Shown here: positions 26,130-34,836 of the stretch, in pieces
Layout of the letters: each line of letters opens with the position of its first letter
Numbering within the stretch: position 1 is the stretch's first letter
Source of the DNA: Candidatus Geothermarchaeota archaeon
Lineage (GTDB): Archaea; Thermoproteota; Nitrososphaeria; Geothermarchaeales; JDFR-13
Direction of reading: 5' to 3'
Length of the DNA: 35,299 nucleotides
NCBI GenBank assembly: GCA_015523545.1
Contig: WAKB01000017.1
Location: 1-35,299, forward strand
Notes under the pieces: model-generated
Database searches by the model: none
The model's input: the letters and a program-made list of their open reading frames with translations, nothing else
What the model was told of the DNA's origin: nothing
Made by a program: the position numbers and the translations under genes

Positions 26130-26837
26130 TTATTTTCTCGTTAATCGCCTAAGAAGAGGGATCTCCTCCAGCTTCTCCTCACTTATAAGATCCCATAGGA
26201 TACCGGGTGGACGGAAGAAGTCTGTACACCTTATCAACCCCCTAGCTGTGGCGATATAGGTTAGGGAGACGTCATAGGGATCCCTTGGGAGAGTGTCATA
26301 CACCTGTAATGGATGGACAGTCGTGGCTATCTCGACGTCCCTCTTTATCCTCCCAGTTTCCAGTAGGATTGCATACTCCAGCTCGGCGTAGCCCTCACCC
26401 TTGCCTAGCCTACCACCATCCTTAGCAGCGGCTACACTCCCCTCCACGATGAAGCCTACTTCCGGGAGATCCTCGGGCTCAACAGGTCTGCCGACGGTGA
26501 AGGCCCCCCTTATGGTCGAGGCGAAGCCTATGTTCCTGATCCTCTCCGGGTCTAGGAGTAGGAAGCCCCTCCTGAGCCTAGGCGTAGGCATGACCAGCTT
26601 CTTACCCATCTCGAGGACCATCCTCCTAACGGGTCTCTGGGGACTGTCCGGGTTTACCTTGACTACCTCAGCATCCATGAAGCCCGGTATCTCCCTAAGC
26701 CTCTCAGCAGCCCTCTCGGCCGACTCGAAGTTGGGTATCCTACCCTCGATAGGCATTGGGGGCCTAGCCACACCAGCCTCAAGGAGCCTACGGTATACTT
26801 CCCGCCTAATCCTCTCCTTCTCCTCCTTAACATTCAT
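26130..26837 (-). CDS. 5-formyltetrahydrofolate cyclo-ligase-like protein (MTHFSD-type)
   Basis: 235 residues. The motif 'GGRLGKGEGYAELEYAIL' (~139-157) is the conserved nucleotide-binding region of the methenyltetrahydrofolate synthetase (5-FTHF cyclo-ligase) fold in its MTHFSD form. The N-terminus has the matching 'EGRIPNFESAERAAERL' segment, and 'MVLEMGKKLVMPTPRLRRGFLLLD' fits the same family. The classical enzyme converts 5-formyl-THF to 5,10-methenyl-THF with ATP; activity for the MTHFSD-type branch is unsettled. The start ATG overlaps the stop of the FMN reductase gene by 4 bp, so the two are translationally coupled. It ends 77 bp before the start of potD. Confidence 0.85.
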   Translation of the reverse strand: MNVKEEKERIRREVYRRLLEAGVARPPMPIEGRIPNFESAERAAERLREIPGFMDAEVVKVNPDSPQRPVRRMVLEMGKKLVMPTPRLRRGFLLLDPERIRNIGFASTIRGAFTVGRPVEPEDLPEVGFIVEGSVAAAKDGGRLGKGEGYAELEYAILLETGRIKRDVEIATTVHPLQVYDTLPRDPYDVSLTYIATARGLIRCTDFFRPPGILWDLISEEKLEEIPLLRRLTRK

Positions 26838-29353: not shown

Positions 29354-30769
29354 GTGATGAGACGGAGGCTCCTACTAGGCCTAGCAATAATGGCTATACT
29401 CGTCGGGGGATACCTCTACCTATACAGCATATCCGCCCCACCCAGCCTCAGGCCCATATGGATAGACTGGGAGCCAGAGGTCATAACAGTTGGGCGTGAA
29501 ACAACCTTCACCCTAACTATGGAGAACGTGGGTTGGGGAGCCTCGGGAGTCCTGAAGGTCTATATAAGAAGCTTCGACAGGTATGGAGGGCTGGGGGAGC
29601 CAAGACTAATAGCGGAGCAGGAGTATAGCGTCGGAGGCGGGGAGACGAGGAACATATCCGTATCAATATCCATCCCGGAGGAGGGGTTCTATAGGCTGAT
29701 CTTCGACTTCGGCGGTAGGACCAAGGCTAGGCAGCTAATATATGTGTATGACCCGGACAACCCCAGGGAGGAGTATAGATTCGCCTTCTTCGCCGATAAT
29801 AGGCCGGGAGGCCCATTAACACCACAGCCAGAGCAGTTCAAGAAGCTGATAAGGATCTTAAACATAGTGAGGCCCGACTTCGCCATACTGGGTGGGGACA
29901 TAGTATATGGATATAGGAGCGAGGCCGTAGTCCTGGCATGGCAGTGGAGCGACTTCCTCTCCATCTACGAGTCCTCAGCCGTACCCATATTCGTCGCCCC
30001 AGGGAACCATGAGATGAAGACTGGTGAAGCCCCCTCTACCGGGGATAGGGATGCCCAGATCCTATTCCTGATGAACCTCGGTAGGCTATACTACAGCTTC
30101 GCATACGGCAAAGACCTCTTCCTCATCCTCGACACCGACATTGTTGGCGAGGCCAACATGATAACCGGGAGGCAGAAGGAGTGGATGGTGGAGATGCTAG
30201 GGGAGGGCCAGAGCTATAGATATAGGTTCACAGCAATGCATAAACCGGCCTTCTCAGGCCCCGCATATAGAACAATAACGAATGATAAGGAGGTCACAGA
30301 GATATTTAGGGGGTATAACGTCACGGTAGCCCTACAGGCACATAACCACATATTCTACAAGAGATACCTAGAGCCTACATGGTTCTATGTATCGGGAGGG
30401 GCAGGGTCGCCGCTATATGTATCACCCGAGGAGGGGGCGCTCTACCACATGTTACTAATAACGGTTGGTGAGGAGGGTGTGGAGGTCAAGGTCATACCCA
30501 CAGAGCTCTTCGAAGAGAGGCTGGGTGAGGTAGAGGTATATCTGAGGCATAGCTTCACCAATGAGATCTCCTTTAGAAGAGGTGATGAAGAGTGGGTGGC
30601 CGAGCCTAGGGAGATACTCCTACAGGGCCTCCTAGTAAGGGGGGAGGCAAAGGTGGAGGGCGATGGGTACGAGATAATCCACCGAACCGATGTAGAGTTG
30701 GATGGGGAGAGATACAGCCTGATAGAGGCTGTTCTGAGGCCTGGGGGCTGGATCAGGGTATACTCATAG
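29354..30769 (+). CDS. Surface metallophosphoesterase with N-terminal CARDB-like domain
   Basis: 471 residues (GTG 29354; ATG 29357 equally likely). An N-terminal hydrophobic helix (~6-26) serves as signal or anchor. Residues ~33-125 form a beta-sandwich of the CARDB/BACON kind, then the phosphoesterase core: FADNR (D148), GGD (~180-182), GNHE (217-220), MHKP (H296) and AHNH (H330, H332), a complete two-metal site in which the first motif has Asn/Arg where DxH is common. The C-terminal ~110 residues are a beta-rich tail. It should hydrolyse a phosphoester outside the cell. It differs from the enzyme at 9515-11446 in domain order and lacks a stalk. It precedes the ECF transporter genes on the same strand by 64 bp. 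Confidence 0.88.
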   Translation: MMRRRLLLGLAIMAILVGGYLYLYSISAPPSLRPIWIDWEPEVITVGRETTFTLTMENVGWGASGVLKVYIRSFDRYGGLGEPRLIAEQEYSVGGGETRNISVSISIPEEGFYRLIFDFGGRTKARQLIYVYDPDNPREEYRFAFFADNRPGGPLTPQPEQFKKLIRILNIVRPDFAILGGDIVYGYRSEAVVLAWQWSDFLSIYESSAVPIFVAPGNHEMKTGEAPSTGDRDAQILFLMNLGRLYYSFAYGKDLFLILDTDIVGEANMITGRQKEWMVEMLGEGQSYRYRFTAMHKPAFSGPAYRTITNDKEVTEIFRGYNVTVALQAHNHIFYKRYLEPTWFYVSGGAGSPLYVSPEEGALYHMLLITVGEEGVEVKVIPTELFEERLGEVEVYLRHSFTNEISFRRGDEEWVAEPREILLQGLLVRGEAKVEGDGYEIIHRTDVELDGERYSLIEAVLRPGGWIRVYS

Positions 30770-30797
30770 CCTGGATTTTAAATTAGCGAGTAAAATC

Positions 30798-30827
30798 TAT
30801 ACATATACAGTAAATGTTTTTTACATT
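30798..30827 (+). promoter_or_regulatory. TATA box and small inverted repeat before the S-component gene
   Basis: CTATACATATAC (30798-30809) is ~25-36 bp before the ATG at 30834. Immediately after it, AATGT-TTTTT-ACATT (30813-30827) is a 5-bp inverted repeat at the predicted transcription start, a possible operator. The T5 in its loop may also end the preceding phosphoesterase message. Confidence 0.4.
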
Positions 30828-30833
30828 GATGAG

Positions 30834-32018
30834 ATGAGGGGTCCCCAAACCCTCCTACCAATCCTCATCCTAGCCCTACTATTCCTAGCGCCTCTCGACG
30901 TGGCTGCCCAGCCCAACATCGATGTAGAGTTCTACTTCCCCCACTACTACAACACTACCTTCAAGGCCCAGACCAATGAGCAGGTAATCATCTCAGGAGG
31001 CTTCAGAGGCGGAGGCTCCTTCTGGGGAGCTGTATACATCACAAACGAGGGTGGGGAGACCATAGACCTGCTGACTGTTAGGCTTGACGTACCTATCGAC
31101 GAGGGATTCAAGGTACTCAGACCACCTAGGGATGGAGTTGCATCCGATGATGGGTCATACTTCGTAGCCAACGTGACCAATATCGAGCCTGGCGAGACAA
31201 GGAGGCTATCATTCCAGCTGGCTGTACCCGAAACCATTGAGCCCAAGGCCGTCGACTTCGTCCTGACCATCACTGATTCTGAGGGCAACGTAGTTTTCCA
31301 GGAGACATATAGAAGGCCCTTCGTGCCTGAGCCCTTCACGGTATACCTAGGTACGTTGATAGTATCACTTGTAGCTATAGGGGCCACCTTCTACGCCATC
31401 GAGAAGGGTAAGCTATACGGAGCATCATTCAAGACGAAGGACATTATATACTCCACGATATTCGGCATATTCCTCACGGTCTGGGTACAGGTCATAGGGC
31501 GTAGCCTAGGATTCTTCGCGATGACGAATAGGCTTCCGATACCATTCGTGAACTATGCTATAGGAGACATAGGTTATGCAACATTCTTCGTACTAGGCGT
31601 ATTAATAGTTAGGAAGCCCGGGGTAGCCACATTCATCCAGTTCGTCTACCAGTTCACTAGCCAGCTAATGTTCTACGGCTTCGACATAAGGTGGTACGTC
31701 TACGCCCTAGCCCAGGCAGTTCCAGTAGACCTATACCTAGCCATATCCAACAAGTACTTCCTAAGCCAGGCTGAGGGGGCAACAATACCGAGGCCCAAGG
31801 GGATATGGGCAGTTATCGACGCGGCCCTCATAGGTGGGCTCAGGGCCTTCTTCGCATGGATATCACTATACTACGTCTTCTACCCATACCTGAACCACTT
31901 CTACACCACGAGCTACGTGGTCTTCATGCATACAACTACGATGACCATCTTCAACATGATCTACGGAGCCTTCGTCGCACTACCACTCTTCAAGGTGCTT
32001 GAGAGGCTGATACCCTGA
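30834..32018 (+). CDS. Secreted beta-domain fused to a six-helix ECF S-component-like membrane domain
   Basis: 394 residues: signal peptide 1-25; an extracellular beta-sandwich (~26-165) with NEW3/CARDB-like features ('VYITNEGGETIDLLTVRL', 'ANVTNIEPGETRRLSFQL'); a membrane helix (~170-195); then about six helices (~205-390) starting 'FKTKDIIYSTIFGIF'. Six helices of this size, placed directly before a fused EcfA-A' and EcfT, fit the substrate-binding S component, and the gene order resembles YkoE-YkoD-YkoC (hydroxymethylpyrimidine/thiamine type). The extracellular domain is not part of ordinary ~200-residue S components. S-component identity is inferred from topology and context, not from a diagnostic residue motif; the ligand is unknown. 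Confidence 0.7.
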   Translation: MRGPQTLLPILILALLFLAPLDVAAQPNIDVEFYFPHYYNTTFKAQTNEQVIISGGFRGGGSFWGAVYITNEGGETIDLLTVRLDVPIDEGFKVLRPPRDGVASDDGSYFVANVTNIEPGETRRLSFQLAVPETIEPKAVDFVLTITDSEGNVVFQETYRRPFVPEPFTVYLGTLIVSLVAIGATFYAIEKGKLYGASFKTKDIIYSTIFGIFLTVWVQVIGRSLGFFAMTNRLPIPFVNYAIGDIGYATFFVLGVLIVRKPGVATFIQFVYQFTSQLMFYGFDIRWYVYALAQAVPVDLYLAISNKYFLSQAEGATIPRPKGIWAVIDAALIGGLRAFFAWISLYYVFYPYLNHFYTTSYVVFMHTTTMTIFNMIYGAFVALPLFKVLERLIP

Positions 32019-32094
32019 GCCCACCATCCAACCCCCACTTTTTATTCATCCCTGTCATGATACTATCTAGACATGCCCACCGGGGATAGAGGGC

Positions 32095-33801
32095 ATGAGT
32101 AGGGAGGTCGTACTACGGATAGAGGATCTCTGGTATAAGTATCCCTTCAGCGACGAGTGGGTCCTGAAGGGTATTAACCTAGAGGTTAGGAAGGGAGAGT
32201 TCATCGTCTTGACGGGTAGGAGCGGATGTGGAAAGTCCACCCTAGCCCTAACAATCTGTGGATACATACCACACGTCATTGACAAGGGGGTTATGAAGGG
32301 ACGTGTCATTGTGAAGGGTATAGATACGAAGACTAAGCCCCTACACCATCTCACCCAGCTAGTCGGGGTTGTGCTACAGAACCCTGAAGACCAGTTGTTC
32401 GCCCTGACGGTTGAGGAGGACGTGGCCTTCGGCCCGGAGAACCTGGCTATGCCGAAGGAGGAGATTATCCGCCGCGTCGAGAGGGCTATGAGGGATGCAG
32501 GTGTATATGAGATTAGGGACAGGCCCATATTCGCCCTGAGCGGAGGGCAGAAGCAGAGGACTGCCATAGCCGGTATCCTGGCTATGGAGCCGGAGATAAT
32601 AATCTTTGACGAGCCGACCTCAGATCTCGATCCCCAGGGGGCGATGGCTGTCCTGAGCGTGATAAGCGAGATACAGAGGAGGAGGGATGTAACCGTCATA
32701 CTTATCGAGCATAGGCTGGACGAGGTATCGAAGTATGCCGATAGGGTCATACTAATGGAGGATGGGGAGATAATCGTTGACGACGAGCCACACAAGGCAT
32801 ATACACGGCTCAACGAGTTCTTGGAGAAGGGTGTCAGGCCCCCACAGATCTCCGAGGCAGCATATAAATATGGCTGGAGAGACGGTATGCCGATAAGCCT
32901 CGAAGAGGGTGTCCAGCTATTCAAGCCCCTCGTAAACGGCCCCGTCAGGATCGATAGGCATGGAACAGGTGTCGGGGCGGGTGGCAGAGTAGCTATAGAG
33001 GTGGAGGACCTCTGGCACACATACCCCAACGGCGTAACCGCGCTTAAAGGGGTCTCCCTAACCATTAGGGAGGGGGAGTTCGTAGCCATAATAGGGAGGA
33101 ATGGGAGCGGCAAATCCACCCTAAGCCAGATACTGGTAGGCCTCCTAAAGCCTACTAGGGGGACGGCCAGGATATATGGCCATGACGTCAGGGAGACCCC
33201 TATGACAGAGATAATCAAGTATGTAGGCTATGTATTCCAGAACCCCGACCACCAGCTCTTCACGAACACTGTGGAGGATGAGCTTGCCTTCGGACCGAGG
33301 AACCTGGGGCTAGACGAGGAGGAGGTTAGGAGGAGGGTGGAGGATGCACTACAGGTCCTGGGCCTAGAGAAGTTCCGGGATAGGCATCCCCAGAGCCTAA
33401 GCAGGGGCCAGAGGAGGAGGCTGGCGGTAGCAACGATACTGACTATGCAGCCGAAGATACTAATTCTAGACGAGCCTACAACGGGACAGGACTGGGGCCA
33501 CTCAGTCAAGCTAATGGATCTCGCCAAGAGGCTGAATAGGGAGAGGGGGATAACAGTTATCTTCATAACCCATGACATGAGGGTCGTCGCCGAGTATGCC
33601 GAGAGAGTCATACTGATGCATAACGGAAAGATAATCTTCGACGGCGAACCTGGAGAACTCTTCAGGAGTGAGTGGCTGCCAGAGTATGACATACTACCCC
33701 CATACATCACCCAGCTGGGGATGAACATCTTCCCAGATAGGCCGGCGATACTCAGTGTAGAGGACTTCCTAGAGGTTATCAGGCCTGTCGAGACGGGGTG
33801 A
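32095..33801 (+). CDS. Energy-coupling factor transporter ATPase, two fused domains (EcfA-A', YkoD-like)
   Basis: 568 residues holding two ABC domains. Domain 1: Walker A GRSGCGKST (41-49), Q-loop NPEDQLF, signature LSGGQKQR (~148-155), Walker B EIIIFDEPTSDLD. Domain 2: Walker A GRNGSGKST (~333-341), Q-loop NPDHQLF, signature LSRGQRRR (~433-440), Walker B KILILDEPTTGQD. The NP(E/D)xQLF Q-loops are typical of ECF ATPases. The second signature has Arg in place of Gly (LSRGQ), so the two ATP sites may differ. The fusion supplies both ATPases of an ECF module with the S-like protein upstream and EcfT 6 bp downstream. Start ATG 32095; a T5 run at about 32038-32042 upstream probably terminates the S gene or forms part of a promoter. 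Confidence 0.94.
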   Translation: MSREVVLRIEDLWYKYPFSDEWVLKGINLEVRKGEFIVLTGRSGCGKSTLALTICGYIPHVIDKGVMKGRVIVKGIDTKTKPLHHLTQLVGVVLQNPEDQLFALTVEEDVAFGPENLAMPKEEIIRRVERAMRDAGVYEIRDRPIFALSGGQKQRTAIAGILAMEPEIIIFDEPTSDLDPQGAMAVLSVISEIQRRRDVTVILIEHRLDEVSKYADRVILMEDGEIIVDDEPHKAYTRLNEFLEKGVRPPQISEAAYKYGWRDGMPISLEEGVQLFKPLVNGPVRIDRHGTGVGAGGRVAIEVEDLWHTYPNGVTALKGVSLTIREGEFVAIIGRNGSGKSTLSQILVGLLKPTRGTARIYGHDVRETPMTEIIKYVGYVFQNPDHQLFTNTVEDELAFGPRNLGLDEEEVRRRVEDALQVLGLEKFRDRHPQSLSRGQRRRLAVATILTMQPKILILDEPTTGQDWGHSVKLMDLAKRLNRERGITVIFITHDMRVVAEYAERVILMHNGKIIFDGEPGELFRSEWLPEYDILPPYITQLGMNIFPDRPAILSVEDFLEVIRPVETG

Positions 33802-33807
33802 GGAGTT

Positions 33808-34836
33808 GTGCAGGATATATTGGCAATACTTTTAGACACACTTAAGTTCCTATTCGACTTCACAGTATTCTTCATCCTGGGCCCCGGAGTCATAATCCTC
33901 CTGATCTACAGGCTTATCCTGAGAGGCGCCCTGAGGAGGTTCTTCCTATACGAGGAGAGGGACAGCTTCTTCCACAAGCTTGACCCGAGGGTCAAGATAT
34001 TCTGGACATTCACCGTCACCCTACTAGCCTCGATCCTCGACGACCTACTCATCCTGAGCCTACTGTTCCTATGGGTAGTCCTCATGTGGATAGCTGCTAA
34101 GCCTCCTAGGGACAAGCTGATAACCATGCTCGTCCTACTCCTACCCATACCCATCAACAGCATATTCTACCAGGGGATACGCTACGGCTACGACTGGTGG
34201 AGCAGGAGCTTCATATACGACGTAACCCCGATCTACGAGATGCACCCCGGCCTAGACTACATACTCGGCGGGCATATACTCACGCTGGAGGGCATGTACT
34301 ACGGCGCCTTCCAGAGCCTGAGGATACTGGTGGCCGCTGGGAGCGGACTACTCCTAGCGATCTCGACAGCACCCAACGCCCTCCTACTAGGCCTGACAAA
34401 CTTCATTAAGAGGGGGGACTTCAGGATAGGTGTACCATACATTCTGAGCTTCGCGGTGGTCATAGGTATTAGGCTTATACCCAGCCTCTTCGAGGATGCC
34501 AACACCATCATAAACGCTGCCAAGGTGAGGGGGCTCTCCATGAGCCCGCCCAAGAGCAGGGATCCCAGGGAGCTTATCAAGGCCCTCAGGAACGCTATCA
34601 AGGTCTTTAGACACATGACGGTGCCACTAATACTCAGCAGCCTCAGGAAGGGTAGCAACATGGCGATAGCCGCTGATCTAAGGGCATTCAGGGCTAAGCC
34701 CAACAGGACATACCTGATCGAGAGGAGGCTAAACACTAGGGACTGGGCCTACCTAATAATAACCGCCGCGGTATTCATACTGGGCTGGTACCTAGCCTAC
34801 ATAGGCTTCGTGGCTACGCCAGGAATCATACTCTAG
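33808..34836 (+). CDS. Energy-coupling factor transmembrane protein EcfT (YkoC-like)
   Basis: 342 residues with several transmembrane helices (N-terminal ~10-33, a cluster at ~68-115, more after ~170 and a final one at ~312-335). The long cytosolic coupling region contains 'NAAKVRGLSMS' (~230-240) and 'AADLRAFRAKP' (~287-298), the two Ala/Arg-type motifs by which EcfT docks on the ATPases. 'FHKLDPRVKIFWTF' near residue 55-68 is the classical EcfT entry motif. The GTG at 33808 has GAGGAG 2 bases before it, 6 bp after the ATPase stop. A 40-residue hydrophobic N-terminal extension precedes the usual start of the family. It couples ATP hydrolysis to toppling of the S component. Confidence 0.92.
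   Translation: MQDILAILLDTLKFLFDFTVFFILGPGVIILLIYRLILRGALRRFFLYEERDSFFHKLDPRVKIFWTFTVTLLASILDDLLILSLLFLWVVLMWIAAKPPRDKLITMLVLLLPIPINSIFYQGIRYGYDWWSRSFIYDVTPIYEMHPGLDYILGGHILTLEGMYYGAFQSLRILVAAGSGLLLAISTAPNALLLGLTNFIKRGDFRIGVPYILSFAVVIGIRLIPSLFEDANTIINAAKVRGLSMSPPKSRDPRELIKALRNAIKVFRHMTVPLILSSLRKGSNMAIAADLRAFRAKPNRTYLIERRLNTRDWAYLIITAAVFILGWYLAYIGFVATPGIIL

Follow-up and report, generated by a model that had tools for sequence, protein, structure and literature searches.

Why would the S component of an archaeal ECF importer carry a domain outside the membrane, and why would its gene follow that of a surface phosphoesterase? The usual picture of an S component is of a small membrane protein, bare of other domains, that topples to hand over its ligand. 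The locus examined here lies on C17, one of the 17 contigs of a 1.15-Mb archaeal genome (G000), and this entire contig of 35,299 nucleotides is the stretch of DNA that was analysed (the window). An earlier note on it had proposed that a phosphorylated vitamin, of the thiamine type by analogy with YkoEDC, is dephosphorylated at the surface and then imported. In its general form, a dedicated (group I-like) ECF importer that would act with a surface phosphoesterase in the dephosphorylation and import of a vitamin-type ligand, we hold this proposal to be evenly balanced between right and wrong.

The four-gene cluster and its conservation

Four consecutive genes on the plus strand had been read in the earlier note, and both coordinates and Pfam matches agree with this reading. 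The genes are given below with the exodomain of the second and one neighbour.

29354..30769, plus strand: predicted calcineurin-like phosphoesterase, membrane-anchored, 471 aa (gene 1; PF00149, motifs, AlphaFold secondary structure)
30834..32018, plus strand: predicted S component with exodomain, 394 aa (gene 2; PF09819 score of the membrane part, hydropathy, AlphaFold exodomain, profile match)
30912..31325, plus strand: exodomain of gene 2 (residues 27-164, about 138 residues), Ig-like beta sandwich (hydropathy, AlphaFold, dN/dS)
32095..33801, plus strand: fused EcfA-EcfA' ATPase, 568 aa (gene 3; two ABC_tran domains, TIGR04520, motifs)
33808..34836, plus strand: EcfT, 342 aa, CbiQ domain (gene 4; PF02361, hydropathy, alignment)
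26130..26837, minus strand: COG0212-like 5-FCL paralogue, neighbour (PF01812, 4.6e-27)

As had also been noted, the S gene, the fused double ATPase and EcfT follow the order YkoE-YkoD-YkoC, preceded here by the surface phosphoesterase. The S, A, A' and T genes are contiguous in the window, in a sister genome (locus L019) and in a Thermofilaceae archaeon (locus L020, JALVKT010000012.1), and by its gene content, ATPases and EcfT the module is a predicted dedicated (group I) ECF importer. A possible TATA-like stretch and a T-run lie between genes 1 and 2, so that co-transcription is not assured.

The sister genome is a 'Nitrososphaeria archaeon' assembly in which the region lies on a 1.14-Mb contig and the S protein is 92% identical; the Thermofilaceae genome keeps the four genes, their order and the fusion, with an S protein of about 61% identity. 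Strong purifying selection acts on all parts, the exodomain included: when the window is compared with the sister genome, dN/dS comes to 0.022 in the S core, 0.045 in the phosphoesterase and 0.063 in the exodomain. A chance or broken reading frame for gene 2 is ruled out by the low dN/dS and by the fusion being intact in both genomes. Full-length matches to the exodomain-bearing S protein were found only in these three genomes when 400 genomes from the class and 398 from the phylum were sampled. Orthologues of gene 1 (E<1e-250) are confined, among the 398 phylum genomes, to the two in which the exodomain S protein is present. The next phosphoesterase match, at 3e-31, has no ECF locus near it, and the neighbourhoods of the four weaker matches (the best two at 3e-31 and 3e-27) contain no ECF genes, one of these contigs being merely 3.7 kb long. 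The phylogenetic profile that had been suggested as a check places the four-gene order in two archaeal families, with phosphoesterase orthologues and exodomain S proteins occurring together.

Other genes surround the cluster. A CLP1-type polynucleotide kinase gene adjoins it in both lineages, at opposite ends (window:28210-29307 and L071:9758-11041), and a secreted 236-residue protein kept in the sister genome is encoded at window:27433-28143 on the minus strand; it reaches the threshold of no Pfam or PHROGs family. Just past the point where the window contig ends, the sister genome holds a likely CRISPR-Cas set (L019:13185-17180, minus strand) with Cas2-, Cas1-, Cas4-, Cas7- and Cas3-like genes, judged by eye. 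A search for viral contigs found none.

Predicted products and their relatives

The gene 1 product comprises an N-terminal helix (residues 2-27), an Ig-like domain (about 32-132), a metallophosphoesterase core (about 142-385) and a C-terminal beta-rich region. Its Metallophos match (PF00149, 4.8e-9, 37.4 bits against a cut-off of 21.5) and its metal-ligand motifs, D148, GDxxY (D182, Y185), GNHE (N218, H219), H296 and H330/H332, place it in the calcineurin-like metallophosphoesterase family as a predicted phosphatase. All of these motifs are identical in L020, where the enzyme as a whole is 38% identical. The series D, GDxxY, GNHE, H and HxH is shared with purple-acid-phosphatase-like members of PF00149, and the Tyr of GDxxY resembles purple acid phosphatases; unlike these enzymes, however, the gene 1 product has a membrane anchor and an Ig-like domain. 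AlphaFold gave a fair model of the N-terminal Ig-like domain and a core with pLDDT below 50, and the best Foldseek matches to this model were glycosidases with Ig-like or beta-rich parts, which are uninformative. Sequence searches of solved structures with the phosphoesterase and with the S protein returned no relatives.

Gene 2 encodes a signal peptide (about residues 1-26), the exodomain (about 27-164), a helix, H0 (about 165-190), and a YkoE-like core (about 199-394). The fusion of a secreted beta-domain to S-like helices stands as originally described, but not the count of six helices, since hydropathy and the model give seven after the exodomain, H0 included. Structure prediction of the full 394-residue protein, from an alignment of three sequences, was likewise successful in part: the exodomain is well predicted as a beta sandwich (pLDDT mostly 80-93 for residues 61-160, with residues 36-62 unresolved), and the model of the membrane part, with pLDDT below 50, is too poor to confirm an S fold. 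Foldseek with the exodomain model returned generic beta-sandwich matches, none of them informative. Compared with L020, residues 27-60 are 74% identical and residues 61-164 49%. Because the best conserved stretch of the exodomain is its first 34 or so residues, and because AlphaFold leaves residues 36-62 unresolved, this conserved N-terminal stretch may be a binding loop.

Gene 3 scores 500 bits with TIGR04520, above the cut-off, and both of its nucleotide sites carry Walker A, Q-loop, signature, Walker B and H-loop motifs. Gene 4 matches PF02361 (CbiQ) at 1e-19 (71.5 bits, cut-off 25), and its EcfT product has an extra hydrophobic N-terminal segment (about residues 1-47) that is common to related archaeal modules.

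The S core has two sets of relatives. PF09819 (ABC_cobalt/YkoE) matches gene 2 with 24.0 bits over the full length and 25.6 bits over the membrane part alone (cut-off 25.2), and hhalign comparison of the S core with canonical YkoE profiles gave 95.6% and 93.1%, with a control against EcfT at 2%. Profile comparison with an archaeal 7-helix S family gave 98.2% over 207 columns. Searching with a profile built from the three exodomain proteins brings in more than 20 relatives of about 235-275 residues, lacking the exodomain, from other Thermoproteota families; these share the helix before the core and an FxTxD motif behind that helix, and those tested have no Pfam or NCBIfam name. The S core is clearly related to this 7-helix family, and the profile matches predict an S-component fold. 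The window module shares with the 7-helix S-EcfAA'-EcfT modules of Thermoproteota (L053-L076) the H0 helix, FxTxD after H0 and the EcfT extension. It differs from them in that its S protein carries an exodomain and its enzyme is of the Metallophos type, whereas theirs is PF04185 or absent, and the HYGFGGEP conserved in their S proteins is shrunk to YGF.

On the YkoE side stands YkoEDC, a group I ECF importer that carries thiamine in Bacillus subtilis (structure of its YkoE: 5edl). Both modules are dedicated and follow the order S, fused double ATPase, T. The window module nevertheless adds the exodomain, H0, the EcfT N-terminal segment and the adjacent phosphoesterase; the window S protein departs from the YkoE (PF09819) layout by an H0 and an exodomain added to six helices (hydropathy, model). 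In an ATPase tree that held only three archaeal YkoD sequences, and for which the program warned of long branches meeting, the exodomain modules lie beside modules of families f45 and f33 and apart from YkoD (98/96 split).

In PMC11109136 an H0 helix with an outside N-terminus is a feature of 5TMR sensor kinases, and none is described there for the S components of ECF importers. The 5TMR sensor histidine kinases have an S-component fold, and the window S protein shares their H0, six helices and extracellular N-terminus, a layout that would suit a sensor or receptor as opposed to a transporter subunit. These kinases, however, end in cytosolic signalling domains and lack an EcfAA'T partner, while the window protein stops after its last helix at residue 394, matches the YkoE profile and is encoded directly before EcfAA' and EcfT both here and in about 20 related loci. 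We therefore consider a sensor role very improbable.

Extra parts are also not without precedent among group I ECF importers, as nickel/cobalt systems use the additional components NikN, NikK/NikL and CbiN (PMC2667541). NikMNQO, NikKMLQO and CbiMNQO resemble the window module in having components beyond S, A and T, but their extras are unrelated components for metal uptake and come without a phosphoesterase. The exodomain of the window S protein is thus a departure from S components that are normally bare, as had been claimed, with the caveat that nickel/cobalt ECF systems have their own additions (PMC2667541).

Phosphoesterases beside related importers

In most of the relatives, the S gene lies directly before fused EcfAA' and EcfT. 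A secreted PF04185 phosphoesterase is encoded directly after EcfT in six loci of family f42 (L058, L060, L062, L064, L068 and L069; 1.9e-66 in L058), and by coordinates in a seventh genome (G696), whereas in L053-L055 (families f11 and f5) the PF04185 gene is found upstream of S. PF04185 has no relationship to the calcineurin-like enzymes. Among the 16 searched genomes that have the 7-helix S family and hold PF04185, ten have a copy at the ECF locus, which by kinship are counted as about three independent arrangements, not ten; most genomes have one or two PF04185 copies, and one has seven. L061 has a PAP2 phosphatase gene next to an S paralogue. That non-homologous phosphatases keep appearing beside a single type of importer suggests dephosphorylation before import and is the best evidence for it. 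The phosphatase part of the original proposal is strengthened by the non-homologous secreted phosphoesterase beside related importers, while its thiamine specificity, discussed below, is weakened.

It could also be that enzyme and importer are neighbours only, the phosphoesterase scavenging phosphate or nucleotides with no functional tie to the ECF importer. Modules of families f45 and f33 have no phosphoesterase adjacent, which implies that importers of this type can do without the enzyme, and gene 1 could have a separate promoter. The metallophosphoesterases of L105 and L106 stand beside unrelated ABC importers and may be generic scavengers. Against this, two non-homologous phosphoesterase families recur at the importer type in at least three arrangements, and no sampled genome has an orthologue of the window enzyme without also having the exodomain S protein. 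We regard mere proximity as unlikely.

Several observations were made alongside. The L105 and L106 loci (L105:4764-7305 and L106:7700-14491, from other Thermoproteota) encode large secreted metallophosphoesterases beside binding-protein-type ABC importer genes, a second pairing of a surface phosphoesterase with an importer. A PF01663 type I phosphodiesterase-like gene lies beside PF04185 at L053:8225-9547, L054:7953-9227 and L055:8529-9782 (Pfam run on L054), and each of these three loci has a second EcfT gene. A BacA/UppP-type diphosphatase gene precedes an orphan 7-helix S gene at a distance of two genes (L073:5760-8347, plus strand); as this is a single case, polyprenyl phosphate recycling was set aside as a role. 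A literature search for a phosphoesterase-ECF link in Sulfolobus or for archaeal ThiR yielded nothing usable.

Ligand and proposed mechanism

The genome-wide check for vitamin synthesis gaps, which had been recommended, revealed several. Neither the window genome nor its sister yielded ThiC, ThiN, lumazine synthase or PdxS, whereas ThiC, lumazine synthase and PdxS were found in 10-14 of 14 control genomes and ThiN in 5 of 14. The assemblies are about 90% complete and single absences could be gaps, yet the same absences recur in both genomes. Since these genes were not found, both archaea probably import the corresponding vitamins. The window module is not the sole vitamin importer, because the same genome has a separate canonical YkoE module on contig C13, together with a shared A-A'-T set and a pair of orphan S proteins, of which one belongs to PF07155 (riboflavin type). 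Given that orphan S protein and the shared ECF module, riboflavin was put low as a ligand.

The residues of YkoE that bind thiamine are Y46, W49, E77, Q95 and D131 (PMC5037267). In the window S protein W49 and E77 correspond to I246 and Q269, the Y46 position is not Tyr and D131 is not aligned; Q294, at the Q95 position, is the sole alignable thiamine ligand kept, and it is Glu in L020. Plain thiamine is therefore doubtful as the window ligand. The YkoE of contig C13 matches B. subtilis YkoE (5edl) at 9.7e-12 and keeps the aligned thiamine-contact motifs YGLW, GET, VQG and LDA. Upstream of the cluster by 2.5 kb, the gene at 26130..26837 scores 21.4 bits with TIGR02727 (cut-off 84.9), and from this low score to the true 5-FCL model we infer a COG0212 member, whose membership in the importer system is only putative. 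COG0212 is described as distinct from 5-FCL enzymes and as taking part in thiamine salvage (PMC3223725). A gene of the same type lies near the S-AA'-T locus of L060, and TenA near the L061 module; such neighbours are scarce and were picked out in hindsight. The COG0212-like neighbour points weakly to thiamine salvage, and a thiamine-related ligand is possible.

It is possible in principle that the module is simply a second thiamine transporter, an ordinary YkoEDC relative with an incidental exodomain, and that its phosphoesterase acts on thiamine phosphates. The YkoE family match, the E-D-C gene order, the missing ThiC and ThiN, and the COG0212-like and TenA neighbours would fit this explanation. 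Nonetheless, the genome already has a canonical YkoE module with intact contact motifs, the contact positions are largely lost in the window S protein, the ATPases branch apart from YkoD, and an Rfam search of the window gave no match at all, and thus no TPP (THI) riboswitch. Such a transporter is, in our judgement, decidedly unlikely. The thiamine analogy of the earlier note accordingly survives in gene order, and less so in ligand.

Two further observations concern thiamine-related genes. A polyamine-type ABC importer (two permeases, ATPase and binding protein) is encoded at window:22068-26837 on the minus strand, preceded by the COG0212-like gene and an FMN reductase-like gene, and its ligand may also be thiamine-related. 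At L007:1940-2839 (plus strand), a ThiR-like gene (HTH and ThiN-like part, by eye) adjoins a canonical YkoE gene.

The one f42 genome that was checked (G625) has ThiC, lumazine synthase and PdxS and yet keeps the module and the PF04185 gene, so the ligand there need not be one of those vitamins. This prototroph is among the points in favour of a dephosphorylated non-vitamin, which PF04185 or Metallophos enzymes would release: choline or another phospholipid head group, a nucleoside or a sugar alcohol. The PF04185 enzyme of L058 also gave partial matches, below cut-offs, to models of phosphocholine-specific phospholipase C and acid phosphatase, a nucleoside phosphorylase gene stands beside the L059 relative, and PF01663 beside PF04185 in L054. 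However, these neighbours are inconsistent between families and the cargo of ECF importers known so far consists of vitamins and metal ions. A non-vitamin cargo appears improbable, and the likeliest class of ligand is a vitamin or part of one. Our leading single guess, a tentative one that holds a substantial minority of our belief, is a thiamine-related compound other than plain thiamine (a pyrimidine or thiazole moiety or a damaged form), with B6 next.

Gene content, topology, conservation and the recurring phosphoesterase neighbours are observed; for transport, substrate, exodomain-enzyme contact and S fold, we infer the following course of dephosphorylation and import. The membrane-anchored metallophosphoesterase would strip phosphate from a phosphorylated micronutrient outside the cell, and the freed, less charged compound would be bound by the 394-residue S subunit. 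The Ig-like exodomain, held above the pocket by H0, may dock the phosphoesterase, or may gate or pre-bind the ligand. The S subunit would then engage its own EcfT and EcfA-A', and ATP hydrolysis would power import. A bolder version, speculative and in our view clearly more likely wrong than right, is that the exodomain recruits the phosphoesterase into a surface complex that dephosphorylates and imports a phosphorylated vitamin or a fragment of one, and that archaea have arrived at such complexes repeatedly, using unrelated phosphatases.

Dedicated ECF importers are already known; what is new here is a predicted S component that has an H0 helix, and in one lineage an exodomain as well, beside a surface phosphoesterase. 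An exodomain on an extra helix constrains or informs the toppling mechanism and offers a new way to study it. A likely role also emerges for the 7-helix S proteins of Thermoproteota that have no Pfam or NCBIfam name. Finally, the recurring non-homologous phosphatase neighbours make it testable how vitamin-dependent archaea may use phosphorylated vitamins that are unable to cross the membrane alone.
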